Origin: an uncultured Chitinophagaceae bacterium
GTDB lineage: Bacteria > Bacteroidota > Bacteroidia > Chitinophagales > Chitinophagaceae
Direction: 5' to 3'
Assembly: GCA_903830285.1 (NCBI GenBank)
Contig: CAIKTE010000318.1
Coordinates: 1 to 42,178 of the forward strand
DNA length: 42,178 nt
The translations under genes and the position numbers were made by a program. Numbering within the stretch: position 1 is the first letter of the stretch; every line of letters begins with the position of its first letter. The notes beneath the pieces are model-generated. The model was given only the letters and a program-made list of their open reading frames with translations. It did not search any database and was not told where the DNA came from. This document shows, piece by piece, positions 1,365-42,178 of this stretch.

Positions 1365-1411
1365 AAAGTCAAAGGTGAAACGTGAATGAACTATCACCTA
1401 TGAACCATGAA
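1365..1411. repeat. Inverted heptamer array upstream of leuS
   Basis: Left units are AAAGTCA, AAGGTGA, AACGTGA (1365-1385). A 5-base centre ATGAA follows, then right units CTATCAC, CTATGAA, CCATGAA (1391-1411). CTATGAA and CCATGAA are also units of the array at 43-118, so the two elements belong to one family. AGGTGA (1373-1378) pairs with TCACCT (1394-1399). The element lies in the presumed leuS leader, 27 bases before the ATG. Confidence 0.55.
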
Positions 1412-1437
1412 CCAAAAAATACATTGTAATTAAGAAT

Positions 1438-4400
1438 ATGGAATACAAATTCAGGGAAATAGAGAAGAAATGGCAAACGCATTGGAAAGAATCGAATGCA
1501 TACAAAGTTTCGAATAATAGCGATAAACCTAAATATTATGTGCTGGATATGTTTCCGTATCCGAGCGGTGCAGGTTTACATGTGGGACATCCACTGGGTT
1601 ATATTGCCAGCGATATTTTTGCGCGCTTTAAAAGATTGAAAGGATTTAATGTGCTGCATCCGATGGGCTATGATGCATTTGGATTACCCGCCGAACAATA
1701 TGCGATCGAACATGGTATTCATCCTGCCATCTCAACAGAAAATAATATCAATAATTTCAGAGCACAGTTAGATAAGATCGGCTTTAGTTTCGACTGGGAC
1801 AGAGAAGTAAAAACATGCGATCCCAAATATTACAAATGGACACAGTGGATATTTCTGCAATTGTTCAATTCTTATTTCAATCGCTTTACGCAGAAGGCCG
1901 AAAGCATATCGCAATTGATTTCCACTTTTGAAACAGAAGGGAATATCAACTTTCCATGTCCGGGTGATGCAAGCATCGAATTCGAAAAAGACCTCTGGAA
2001 AAGTTTTACGGATGAATATCAGCAGGAAGTGTTGATGCATTATCGGTTGGCTTATTGCGGTTATGGTGAAGTGAACTGGTGCGAAGCATTGGGAACTGTT
2101 TTAGCGAATGATGAAGTTGTGAATGGTGTGAGTGAACGTGGTGGTCATCCGGTAGTAAAAAAGAAATTGCGTCAATGGTATTTAAGGATAACAGAATATG
2201 CAGATCGATTGCTGCAAGGCTTACAGACAGTGGATTTCAGCGATGCGATGAAAGAAATGCAAACCAATTGGATCGGTAAATCTACGGGAGCAGAGATCAT
2301 TTTTAATATCGGTAATCGTGAATCGTCAATCGCGAGTCCACTTGCGACTTCGGCTTCACGACTTACGATTTATACTACCCGCCCTGATACGATCTTCGGT
2401 GTTGATTTTATGGTTGTATCACCCGAACACGAACTGGTGAAACTTATTACAACAACAGAACAAAAAGCAGAAGTTGAAAAATATATCGACTATGTAAACA
2501 GCCGGAGTGAAAGAGAACGCATGGCTGAGAAAAAGATCACCGGATGTTTTACGGGTGCTTATGCCATCAATCCATTCAATGCAAAACCAATTCCTGTTTG
2601 GATCAGTGAATATGTGCTGGCAGGTTATGGAACAGGTGCCATCATGGCCGTTCCTTGTGGTGATGAACGTGATTTTAAATTCGCGAAACATTTTAATATT
2701 CCTATCACCAATATCATCGGAGATCATTTTAATGGTGAAGAAGCCAATGATACCAAAGAAGCAAAACTCAGCAATAGCGATTTCCTGAATGGGGTTGTGA
2801 TGAAAGATGCAATAGAATTGGTCGTAAATCAAATCGAAACATTGGGTATCGGCAAGAAGAAAATAAATTATAGGATGCGTGATGCTGCATTCAGCAGACA
2901 ACGTTATTGGGGCGAACCATTTCCAATTATCTGGAAAGATGGTGTTGCAATTCCAATTCCTGAAAGCGAATTACCATTACAATTACCTGAAGTTAAAAGT
3001 TATAGTCCGGGACTAGAAGGAGAAGGACCGCTTTCCAATATTCATGATTGGATTTATCAGTATGAAGATGCTGATTTTATTCCCCCTTCAGGGGGCAAGG
3101 GGGTATTAGAGACCAACACAATGCCCGGTTATGCAGGAAGCAGCTGGTATTTTTTACGTTATATGGATCCGCATAATGCTGAAACATTCTGTAACAGGAA
3201 AGTAAGTGATTACTGGAATCAGGTTGATTTATATATTGGCGGAACAGAGCATGCAGTGGGACATTTATTGTACAGCCGCATGTGGACGAAAGCCCTATAT
3301 GACTTAGGTTTTATAGGATATGATGAACCTTTTAAAAAGTTGCTGAATCAGGGGATGATACAGGGGGTATCTCAAATTGCCTATGTTCAAAAAATCGAAT
3401 TTAAAGAAAATGAAAAAGGAGAAGAAGCAAGTAGAGGTGAGTCAAATACAATTTTTGTTAATGGACAAGTAGCATCGGTTCCAGAAGCAAAATTGCAACT
3501 ATATTCTTCTGAAGTAATAAACGAATATAATAAAGATCATTTTAAACCTTATAATATTCCAATAGAATTAGTAAGTCTCAATAGCGCTAATCCTAAAAGA
3601 AATGAGTTAAATATAAAGGAAGCTTTAAAAAAATATTCAAATAGACTAAATGCCATTTACATAACTACAACTGGCTTTAATTATAATGGTAATTGGTTCA
3701 TCAAAAAAGAAAATGATTGGGTTGAGGATATTTATAATGAAGCAAATCAAGTTTTCTATGTTGAGAGTGAAGTGGAAAAAATGTCTAAGTCGAAATACAA
3801 TGTTGAAAATCCTGATGAAATAATTGCAAAATATGGCGCCGATACTTTCCGTATGTACGAAATGTTCTTAGGTCCGGTTGAACAAAGCAAACCTTGGGAT
3901 ACGAAGGGTATTGAAGGTGTACACCGTTTCCTGAAAAAATTATGGCGTTTATTTTACGACGAAGTGAAAGGCCCGATCTGGACGGAATCAGCTCCCTCTC
4001 TTTCGGAGAGGGCGGGGGGAGAGGCCACAGCCGAAGAATTAAAAACATTGCATAAGACCATCAAGAAAATTGAAGATGATACAGAGCGTTTCTCTTTCAA
4101 TACTGCAGTATCTGCATTCATGGTGTGTGTGAATGAACTGGCAGATCTTAAATGTAATAAACGTGAAGTGTTGGAGCCTGTTTTAATTATGCTGGTTCCT
4201 TATGCACCGCATATTGCAGAAGAATTATGGAAAGCGTTGGGAAACAGTAATTCTATTTTGGATGCAGCTTTCCCGGTATTCGATGCAAAATATGTAGCAG
4301 AATCATCCAAAGAATATCCGGTAAGTATTAACGGCAAATTGCGTACAACCATTTCTTTGGATATTAATATTTCACAACAGGAAGTGGAACCGATCGTTCT

Positions 4401-4491
4401 GGCAAATGAAACGGTTCAAAAATGGCTGGAAGGCAAAGCGCCAAAGAAGATCATTTTTGTAAAAGGAAAGATGATCAATGTGGTGATATAA
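1438..4491 (+). CDS. leuS: Leucine--tRNA ligase (LeuRS), enlarged
   Basis: A class I aminoacyl-tRNA synthetase that charges tRNA-Leu. The HIGH-type motif is HVGH at residues 48-51 and the KMSKS loop is at 781-785. The CP1 editing domain contains the typical TTRPDT segment just after residue 311, and an anticodon-binding domain follows residue 870. At 1017 residues it is much longer than E. coli LeuRS (about 860). Part of this is a Bacteroidota-type insertion before KMSKS, about residues 640-778, which here is AT-rich and long. Three short in-frame repeat insertions (residues 293-311, 549-555, 852-863) add to it. The frame is open throughout and all signature motifs remain, so the enzyme is probably functional. 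Start ATG 1438 gives the expected N-terminus; no Shine-Dalgarno is evident. Confidence 0.97.
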   Translation: MEYKFREIEKKWQTHWKESNAYKVSNNSDKPKYYVLDMFPYPSGAGLHVGHPLGYIASDIFARFKRLKGFNVLHPMGYDAFGLPAEQYAIEHGIHPAISTENNINNFRAQLDKIGFSFDWDREVKTCDPKYYKWTQWIFLQLFNSYFNRFTQKAESISQLISTFETEGNINFPCPGDASIEFEKDLWKSFTDEYQQEVLMHYRLAYCGYGEVNWCEALGTVLANDEVVNGVSERGGHPVVKKKLRQWYLRITEYADRLLQGLQTVDFSDAMKEMQTNWIGKSTGAEIIFNIGNRESSIASPLATSASRLTIYTTRPDTIFGVDFMVVSPEHELVKLITTTEQKAEVEKYIDYVNSRSERERMAEKKITGCFTGAYAINPFNAKPIPVWISEYVLAGYGTGAIMAVPCGDERDFKFAKHFNIPITNIIGDHFNGEEANDTKEAKLSNSDFLNGVVMKDAIELVVNQIETLGIGKKKINYRMRDAAFSRQRYWGEPFPIIWKDGVAIPIPESELPLQLPEVKSYSPGLEGEGPLSNIHDWIYQYEDADFIPPSGGKGVLETNTMPGYAGSSWYFLRYMDPHNAETFCNRKVSDYWNQVDLYIGGTEHAVGHLLYSRMWTKALYDLGFIGYDEPFKKLLNQGMIQGVSQIAYVQKIEFKENEKGEEASRGESNTIFVNGQVASVPEAKLQLYSSEVINEYNKDHFKPYNIPIELVSLNSANPKRNELNIKEALKKYSNRLNAIYITTTGFNYNGNWFIKKENDWVEDIYNEANQVFYVESEVEKMSKSKYNVENPDEIIAKYGADTFRMYEMFLGPVEQSKPWDTKGIEGVHRFLKKLWRLFYDEVKGPIWTESAPSLSERAGGEATAEELKTLHKTIKKIEDDTERFSFNTAVSAFMVCVNELADLKCNKREVLEPVLIMLVPYAPHIAEELWKALGNSNSILDAAFPVFDAKYVAESSKEYPVSINGKLRTTISLDINISQQEVEPIVLANETVQKWLEGKAPKKIIFVKGKMINVVI
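2314..2371. repeat. Heptamer inverted array inserted in frame in leuS
   Basis: Left units are AATCGTG, AATCGTC, AATCGCG (2314-2334). After two bases come TCCACTT, GCGACTT, CGGCTTC, ACGACTT, ACGATTT (2337-2371), which on the other strand read AAATCGT, AAGTCGT and so on. The element encodes residues 293-311 of LeuRS, a Ser/Ala/Thr-rich stretch in a loop of the editing domain directly before the conserved TTRPDT strand. Comparable LeuRS proteins, as I recall them, have a short turn here. Confidence 0.6.
3081..3104. repeat. GC-rich palindrome in frame in leuS (PPSGGKG)
   Basis: CCCCC (3082-3086), TTCA, GGGGG (3091-3095), CAA, GGGGG (3099-3103) encodes residues 549-555 of LeuRS, just before the conserved ETNTMPGYAGSSW segment. 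The run of C and G stands out sharply from the flanking AT-rich codons and looks like an inserted dispersed repeat. Confidence 0.5.
3991..4026. repeat. GC-rich hairpin in frame in leuS (APSLSERAGGEA)
   Basis: CCCTCTC (3994-4000), loop TTTCG, GAGAGGG (4006-4012) is a perfect 7-base stem, followed by a G-rich run to 4020. It encodes residues 852-863, at the junction of the catalytic and anticodon-binding domains. Base composition is unlike the flanks. The same type of sequence also lies in frame in the GNAT gene (36047-36078). Confidence 0.5.
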
Positions 4492-4610
4492 GATAGATCA
4501 TTCTTTAGCCCGTAGCCGGAATTTAATTATTCTTTAAAATAGTAGCCTCATCGAGGCAATAGAAATTCAGCTTCAAATTGAAAATATGCTGCTGTAAATA
4601 GCAAGTGTTC

Positions 4611-4643
4611 GGCTGAGGTTCAGCCGAGGTTCGACGGAGCCAT
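4611..4643. repeat. Short direct repeats of 11 bases
   Basis: GGCTGAGGTTC (4611-4621) is followed by AGCCGAGGTTC (4622-4632) and a degenerate third unit GACGGAGCCAT. GGCT and AGCC also allow a small hairpin. The 11-base period matches blocks at 4760-4803 and 41997-42090, although the unit sequence differs. Confidence 0.4.
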
Positions 4644-4759: not shown

Positions 4760-4803
4760 TGAATTATCTAAGAAGTATATAAGGCTTATATAAGGAGTAT
4801 GCG
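4760..4803. repeat. Four tandem 11-base units
   Basis: TGAATTATCTA, AGAAGTATATA, AGGCTTATATA and AGGAGTATGCG follow each other without gaps. Shared positions are the GAA/GG start and the TAT core. The period of 11 equals about one DNA helical turn. No gene function is implied. Confidence 0.5.
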
Positions 4804-41980: not shown

Positions 41981-41996
41981 TAGCTATCTCATTAAT

Positions 41997-42090
41997 ACCT
42001 TCTTCCTGTTTCCTTTTGGCCTTCTTCGGAGTAAGTCCGTTATTTAACGGACTTACTCCGAAGAAGGTACGAAGAAGATACGAAGATGAT
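41997..42090. repeat. Symmetric inverted array of 11-base units
   Basis: Right half: ACGGACTTACT, CCGAAGAAGGT, ACGAAGAAGAT, ACGAAGATGAT (42047-42090). Left half, read on the minus strand: ACGGACTTACT, CCGAAGAAGGC, CAAAAGGAAAC, AGGAAGAAGGT (42040-41997). The 6-base core is TATTTA (42041-42046). The inner 23 bases of each arm (42020-42042, 42045-42067) are perfectly complementary. The design parallels the heptamer arrays elsewhere in the window. Confidence 0.65.
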
Positions 42091-42178
42091 ACCTGTGTCT
42101 TATACTGAAAAAACTTTACACAGGGGAAGGATGATACTAATATTACTTTACAGCGTATCACAATAGTAGCGATTTAGC

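Follow-up and report, generated by a model that had tools for sequence, protein, structure and literature searches.

An in-frame, two-armed heptamer hairpin in a Chitinophagaceae leucyl-tRNA synthetase gene, and heptamer arrays recurring at the same loop within the family

The DNA analyzed here (the window) is a 42,178-nucleotide stretch, contig C318 of the genome of an uncultured Chitinophagaceae bacterium (the source genome, G000; 3.99 Mb in 384 contigs). Its open reading frame at 1438–4491 scores 955 bits with the leucyl-tRNA synthetase (LeuRS) model TIGR00396, against a cut-off of 548.4. The features of this gene, leuS, and of the sequence directly upstream of it are collected in Table 1.

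Table 1 Coordinates of leuS and of the repeats and inserts at the locus, in window positions.
Feature	Position	Strand	Basis
leuS, leucyl-tRNA synthetase, 1017 aa	1438..4491	+	TIGR00396 E 3.5e-287; Pfam PF13603 editing domain = residues 277-466
In-frame heptamer hairpin, CP1/editing-domain loop (~residues 292-312)	2311..2371	+	Sequence, Tandem Repeats Finder (TRF), fold, stem score
Left arm AATCGTG AATCGTC AATCGCG AGTC (~3.5 units)	2314..2338	+	Sequence; TRF period 7 over 2314-2332
Right arm (~4 units), reverse complement of degenerate ARTCGTN units	2340..2371	+	Sequence; stem score above all 200 shuffles
In-frame TCA; a unit in its TGA form would place a stop here	2326..2328	+	Sequence
Intergenic heptamer array (ATGAACC), directly upstream of leuS	1386..1418	+	TRF; period-7 scan
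Second in-frame leuS insert, GC palindrome CCCCCTTCAGGGGGCAAGGGGG	3082..3103	+	Absent in G001, G003, G004; DUF559 element in the same interval of G017, G011
Third in-frame leuS insert, GC palindrome	3992..4024	+	Also in G004; G003 lacks 30 nt here; resembles DUF559 flanks (by eye)

The codons of the hairpin read GGT AAT CGT GAA TCG TCA ATC GCG AGT CCA CTT GCG ACT TCG GCT TCA CGA CTT ACG ATT T (2311–2371), nucleotide 2314 being the first base of codon 293. An earlier reading made from the letters alone (the sequence-only reading) had described a heptamer array in leuS at 2314–2371. The array is real and in frame but is not a single direct one, since its two arms are inverted, the right arm reading AAATCGT-AAGTCGT-GAAGCCG-AAGTCGC-AAGT on the opposite strand. 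Tandem Repeats Finder reports just 2.7 copies (2314–2332, score 31), and the period-7 score of the loop is a moderate 16/21. The stem score of the loop is 12, where 200 base shuffles of the loop reach a maximum of 10. Folded as RNA, the hairpin has a z-score of −3.7 that none of 200 dinucleotide shuffles equals; the DNA fold stands out less (z −2.1, equalled by 7 of 200). In an AlphaFold2 model of LeuRS residues 212–492, which is of modest quality (mean pLDDT 69.5, pTM 0.68), the segment lies between the strands at 281–293 and 308–313, with residues 297–304 below a pLDDT of 50, and the model thereby predicts that the hairpin encodes a flexible loop between two editing-domain strands. Alignment places a long loop at the equivalent position of a LeuRS of known structure (7nua), which we take to be that of Neisseria.

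Between the motifs NWIG and TTRPD, the loop is 41 amino acids long in the window and 30 amino acids long, with another sequence, in the same-genus genomes G001, G002, and G003, so that the net gain in leuS amounts to 11 codons and not to the 19 suggested earlier. G003 is 92% identical to the window over the leuS stretch despite its differing loop. The loops of G000 and G003 are not alignable as a clean insertion, the entire loop being different; judging from these sequences, native loop codons might have been replaced or expanded instead of being split by a clean insertion. Two other leuS loops were found in the fourth same-genus genome, G004. One (L046) holds an inverted repeat whose stem scores 12 where shuffles reach at most 9, and the second (L047) holds a CCATSGT array scoring 18/21 and was left out of the later loop counts because the contig ends there. 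The check proposed with the sequence-only reading, that residues ~293–311 would occur in only some relatives, was run and agreed with it, the loop being other and shorter in three of these genomes; conservation of the loop in distant relatives, which would have marked it as native protein, is the opposite of what was seen in both the same-genus and the wider leuS loop comparisons.

For the wider comparison, we gathered 220 leuS loci, 60 being taken from the leuS match list and 30 automatically. A leuS match was obtained from 188 of the 195 family genomes, 22 of which gave at least two matches, often with a split loop; of the 22, 16 were left out. The loop was readable at 216 loci and gave 190 distinct loops, 184 of them shorter than 80 amino acids. 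Among these 184, period 7 reached at least 16/21 in 25 loops and 18 in 11 loops, while periods 5, 6, 8, 9, and 10 gave 0–1 each, with one loop at 16 altogether. When nine loci from other families were removed, 25 of 181 distinct loops qualified at 16/21, and 14 more scored 14–15. None of the 21 readable leuS loops from the order's other families reached 16/21 (maximum 13; 22 loci examined). Loci L042–L061 had been partly chosen for a broken leuS match, and a single one of the 25 strong heptamer loops (L042) comes from this set.

The units at this one site vary (AATTCAA, CATTCAA, ACAGCTC, GTCGACC, GAATTCA, and others), and AATSGTS units lie at the window's own leuS codons in another genome, G205 (L129). 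On a quick tree of 113 leuS rows built without the loop, in which 30 of the 110 inner branches are weak, the 19 heptamer rows require at least 15 changes; with the 89 unlabelled rows set aside, the heptamer rows account for 3 changes in the tree's group table.

Two further observations were made in the same gene. In-frame heptamer arrays also lie at a second spot, upstream of the CP1 loop (about residues 165–190 of the window), in L234, L237, L238, L259, L260, and L261. At L055 (G058), the editing-domain loop carries a different in-frame insert, 202 amino acids being the length of the loop, with no DUF559 motif.

It had also been proposed that a 7-base unit keeps frame only in steps of three units. 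The frame constraint is real, and it works through partial units and stop-codon avoidance besides such steps. One difference of exactly three units was found, in mfd, where G004 exceeds G000 by 21 nt at site 2. Strict three-unit steps are rejected by the leuS loop lengths, which are not limited to multiples of 7 amino acids. Stop-codon avoidance was followed in leuS loops of the TGA type, defined by at least three T[G/C]A trinucleotides at 7-nt spacing, with at least one TGA, a filter that seven loops pass. The in-frame trinucleotide is TCA in all seven and TGA in none, and out of frame TGA occupies 18 of 22 places. As a coding array with an in-frame TGA is impossible, the informative part is that TGA stays the rule out of frame. 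The window array is below the length for this filter and likewise shows TCA in frame (Table 1).

The preference for seven bases extends to the surroundings of leuS. In 790,156 bases around leuS at 80 named loci, which are the best leuS matches unfiltered by family, we counted 52 arrays of period 7 at 17/21 or more, 21 in leuS and 31 outside it, compared with 17 arrays of period 14, 7 of period 21, and at most 7 of every other period from 4 to 20. Within leuS of these loci, periods 5–13 other than 7 gave no array. For three of the 31 arrays outside leuS (L220, L245, L276), the surrounding open frame is at least 150 amino acids long. The 52 arrays have 43 distinct consensus units, and units holding TGA are enriched (22 of 43, against 11.3 ± 2.7 expected by permutation); a universal TGANNNN rule was nevertheless discarded, TGA being present in only these 22.

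Arm pairing is found in about half of the arrays. A reverse-complement partner lies within 110 bp of 29 of 61 arrays from 31 genomes, against 4 when the flanks of another array are used and 0 with shuffled flanks; the other 32 have no partner arm. In a stem test of 16 long leuS heptamer loops, 10 (the window included) scored above the best of 200 shuffles, two equalled it, and four fell below, 14 of the loops being hand-picked and both loops added later (L168 and L263) failing. The best stem (L227) has a single mismatch that recurs once per unit, a pattern suggesting that its arms were each homogenised separately.

Arrays of this kind are not confined to leuS. The window's unit pattern gave 9 matches at 7 sites of the source genome, against 1 with the reversed pattern, mostly within long open frames. 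The array-bearing frames encode PurH, a TrpG/PabA amidotransferase, a UbiD-family decarboxylase, and an RsmB/F-type methyltransferase (L035, by Pfam), and for a LuxE-like frame (L037) the assignment is weak (38 bits vs 550). The source-genome mfd also has in-frame arrays, at site 1 and site 2, and a further heptamer array lies in an alanyl-tRNA synthetase frame of G008. Array-free alleles exist: mfd site 2 holds a two-armed segment of at least 22 codons in G000, G002, and G004, and is array-free and 22 codons shorter, with conserved flanks, in G001 and G003. For trpG/pabA, located in four of the five same-genus genomes, the array-free alleles of G003 and G001 are 17 and 10 codons shorter, respectively. 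In ubiD, the units are CTGTCAT-like in G003 and G001 and ACTCACG in G002. Some of these arrays score weakly, below the 16/21 threshold (14/21 for source-genome mfd site 1, 15/21 for ubiD of G001, G003, and G004). In the ubiD of G004 (L331), a CCTGCC..GGCAGG palindrome is apparently nested in frame within the heptamer array.

In a source-genome sample of 228,035 bases, 9 period-7 sites at 16/21 were found, against 1, 1, and 1 in three Markov controls, and all 9 lie in the window and in contigs C20, C122, and C265, which had been chosen for earlier matches. Seven of the 9 are within open frames, including one frame of 148 amino acids (L105) that has no family match; the sites at 1909 and 12443 of L098 resemble plain low-complexity sequence. 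In 17 other stretches (127,166 bases, not chosen by matches), no period-7 site reached 16/21. Heptamer arrays are thus sparse in the source genome. Period 11 gave 8 sites at 16/21 in the same sample, three of them from the unselected stretches. Period-11 arrays also occur in the window (41996–42092, 4607–4632, and 4761–4800), one of which belongs to an inverted repeat of 47 nt close to the end of the contig.

The explanation that we favor, with a probability of roughly 0.57, is that dispersed repeats seed heptamer hairpins, slippage then reshapes them, and those that persist lie in tolerant loops and keep the reading frame. The leuS segment would then be one of the heptamer hairpins of Chitinophagaceae and near relatives, made of two inverted arms of short 7-nt runs. 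Outside leuS, such arrays would be mostly non-coding, and occasionally one would arrive or grow within a gene, where its survival would require a tolerant loop, a net change that is a multiple of three, and no TGA in frame; the editing-domain loop of leuS may be one such tolerant place. Slippage, the presumed driver of unit turnover, and unit homogenisation would alter the arms and so leave different heptamers at one site in sister species, and new sites would be seeded by the copying of existing arrays. The repeat in LeuRS would most likely be a neutral passenger in a flexible loop. The proposal of the sequence-only reading that a repeat family invaded an essential gene survives for a recent in-frame repeat, gained or remade and recurrent elsewhere, and does not survive for one family (43 units in 52 arrays; permutation p 0.335, given below). 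A single dispersed family was rejected as the whole story because the units vary, the amplification of single units being real nevertheless.

An unlikely but serious alternative to seeding from dispersed repeats is a local origin, in which slippage expands a chance 7-nt seed among the loop codons, inverted template switching makes the second arm, and nothing is copied from elsewhere. Unit variation within a genome is as large as between genomes: likeness of units showed no excess within genomes (permutation p 0.335, a comparison of low power with 40 within-genome pairs), which speaks against plain copy-and-paste. Two short direct arrays at 21/21, AATTCAA in L009 and CATTCAA in L024, seem to have grown from loop codons. 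The units of purH are likewise in register across species, the gene having equal length in all five genomes with GCTCAAA units in G004 and ACTCACG units in G000. The final purH unit of G000 reads ACTCAAAG, so that one unit may have spread through the purH array. The absence of period-7 sites from the unselected source-genome stretches led us to grade seeding down and local origin up.

Against a purely local origin, one unit occurs at hundreds of matches in some genomes and is absent from others. The window-unit pattern AATCGTS has 896 matches in G007, 239 in G017, and 73 in G020; every same-genus genome has 7–11, and 26 of 39 genomes have none. These counts run high because matches within one array can overlap. 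Such single-unit amplification in some lineages means that copying between sites probably occurs. Over 200 kb of G007, AATSGTS and AAGTAWT together account for 23 of 34 arrays, and 19 of the 23 array clusters lie outside any open frame of at least 120 amino acids. The two-armed segment of mfd site 2, missing between conserved flanks in two genomes, also argues against growth from a local seed. Arrays can therefore spread within a lineage and then swap their unit in place. Period seven is not dominant everywhere, as 140 kb of G008 gave 7 sites of period 8 at 16/21 and 9 of period 7. In G007:C6 (L316–L325), arrays of the AAGTAAT type often adjoin ACGGCTG/ACAGCCG, possibly a fixed border.

That the hairpin was inserted as a defined element, a palindrome mobilised by a transposase as in the REP/RAYT, MITE, or Rickettsia palindromic element types, seems improbable to us. 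It would fit arrays that are dispersed, often hairpin-shaped, and in frame in several genes for which empty alleles exist, and Y1 transposase domains were found in 29 of the 39 genomes searched. The arrays have no common sequence, however, and no fixed ends were seen in leuS; G007, with its 896 matches, has a single weak Y1 match (E 8e-5), and the one weak match of the source genome has an internal stop. Across the 39 genomes, Y1 matches did not track heptamer abundance when compared by eye. A functional addition, with the loop tuning LeuRS editing or the mRNA hairpin tuning leuS expression, is very unlikely: the editing-domain position and the stable RNA hairpin would suit it, but the loops of sister species are unrelated, other species have unrelated units and peptides, and inserts of like kind sit in unrelated enzymes. 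Hardly any credence is left for a native loop with chance periodicity or an assembly artefact, to which the degenerate array (16/21; TRF score 31) and the lack of a period-7 excess in the unselected part of the source genome lend themselves, as the loop differs in the nearest relatives, a similar AATSGTS array lies at the same place in G205, and period 7 alone stands out of the six periods tested in the leuS loop.

The leuS feature has precedents of two kinds, in heptanucleotide repeats and in palindromes that lie in frame. Rickettsia palindromic elements are described as in-frame palindromic repeats of ~150 bp within unrelated metabolic genes, grouped in families and with an open reading frame for a conserved peptide (PMC10969869 and PMC3733652). 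The inserts described here resemble them in lying in frame in housekeeping genes and in being missing from orthologues (leuS, mfd site 2, and trpG/pabA). The window hairpin differs in its ~61 bp, its 7-nt units, and its differing peptides, and the likeness drawn in the sequence-only reading does not extend to any shared sequence. REP elements are short palindromes, some within replication and repair genes, that bear a GTAG or CGTC tag and are linked to RAYTs (PMC3733652). Unlike these, the window hairpin has neither tag at either end; the CGTC that it does contain is, by eye, internal to the left arm (2324–2327).

Of the known heptanucleotide repeats, those with the unit TAACTGA occur in Beggiatoaceae and also in five Bacteroidetes, with some sets in open reading frames and one near the end of a putative purC (PMC4679880), and those with the unit GGGNATC occur in Xanthomonas and Nostoc (PMC4692102). 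According to the reports, these repeats are largely non-coding, and sets within reading frames lie mainly at protein ends; forward TAACTGA repeats have stops in every frame (PMC4679880). The arrays described here are similar in their 7-nt unit and lineage specificity and apparently in being dispersed, with period 7 leading in the leuS loops, at the leuS loci, and in G007. They differ in forming hairpins well inside the coding sequence of essential enzymes, where in-frame stops are avoided. The P6b stem of the Nostoc trnL intron is also built on 7-nt motifs, and one motif class was repeatedly replaced by another (PMC4476775). The arms of 7-nt units pair here as well, in the 29 arrays with a partner, but the Nostoc stem sits in a group I intron and the window hairpin in protein-coding sequence. 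Searches of open-access full texts turned up no description of heptamer hairpins that recur in frame at fixed protein sites.

A 7-nt repeat should break a gene at most changes in copy number, yet these bacteria carry such repeats in synthetases, in enzymes of purine synthesis (one case) and DNA repair (one factor), and, across many lineages, at the leuS loop. They offer natural experiments on slippage, frame, and stop codons in coding repeats, supply essential proteins with quickly changing loops, and allow one to ask why the unit has seven bases regardless of its sequence.

The leuS gene also takes up larger in-frame inserts. In G017, G029, G031, G033, and G016, the leuS loop holds an in-frame insert of ~150–220 amino acids that carries a DUF559 domain and has GC palindromes on its flanks; because of the choice of L042–L061 given above, the number of DUF559 inserts seen in leuS loops should not be read as a rate. 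G017 has two such inserts in leuS, one in the loop and one in the interval matching window positions 3082–3103. Beyond LeuRS, in-frame DUF559 domains were found in an HSDR_N protein, an M23 peptidase, MetH, and MetRS (the last in the source genome, G000:C114 L068, and in G001). A further one lies in a CinA frame that a contig end truncates, and another closes a UroD frame. The loci with these Vsr-like inserts are L068, L072, L069, L088, L074, L078, L048–L053, L064, and L066. Their borders are translated GC palindromes in LeuRS and, by eye, similar peptides elsewhere. A cursory check of the open-access literature mentioning DUF559 yielded no account of such in-frame inserts.

As a long shot, the Chitinophagaceae might share a process that repeatedly writes hairpins of 7-nt units into the same tolerant loops in essential enzymes, with one unit giving way to another from sister species to sister species. 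The heptamers and solo palindromes might then be repair scars or relics at cutting sites of the DUF559 nuclease, whose in-frame element uses the leuS loop too. If this were true, the loops would be DNA docking sites inside aminoacyl-tRNA synthetases.

DUF559 matches were obtained in 25 of 59 genomes. By eye, an apparent solo GC palindrome of the DUF559-flank type, with no nuclease, was noticed in the leuS CP1 loops of L237, L244, L252, L149, L152, L172, L176, and L208.
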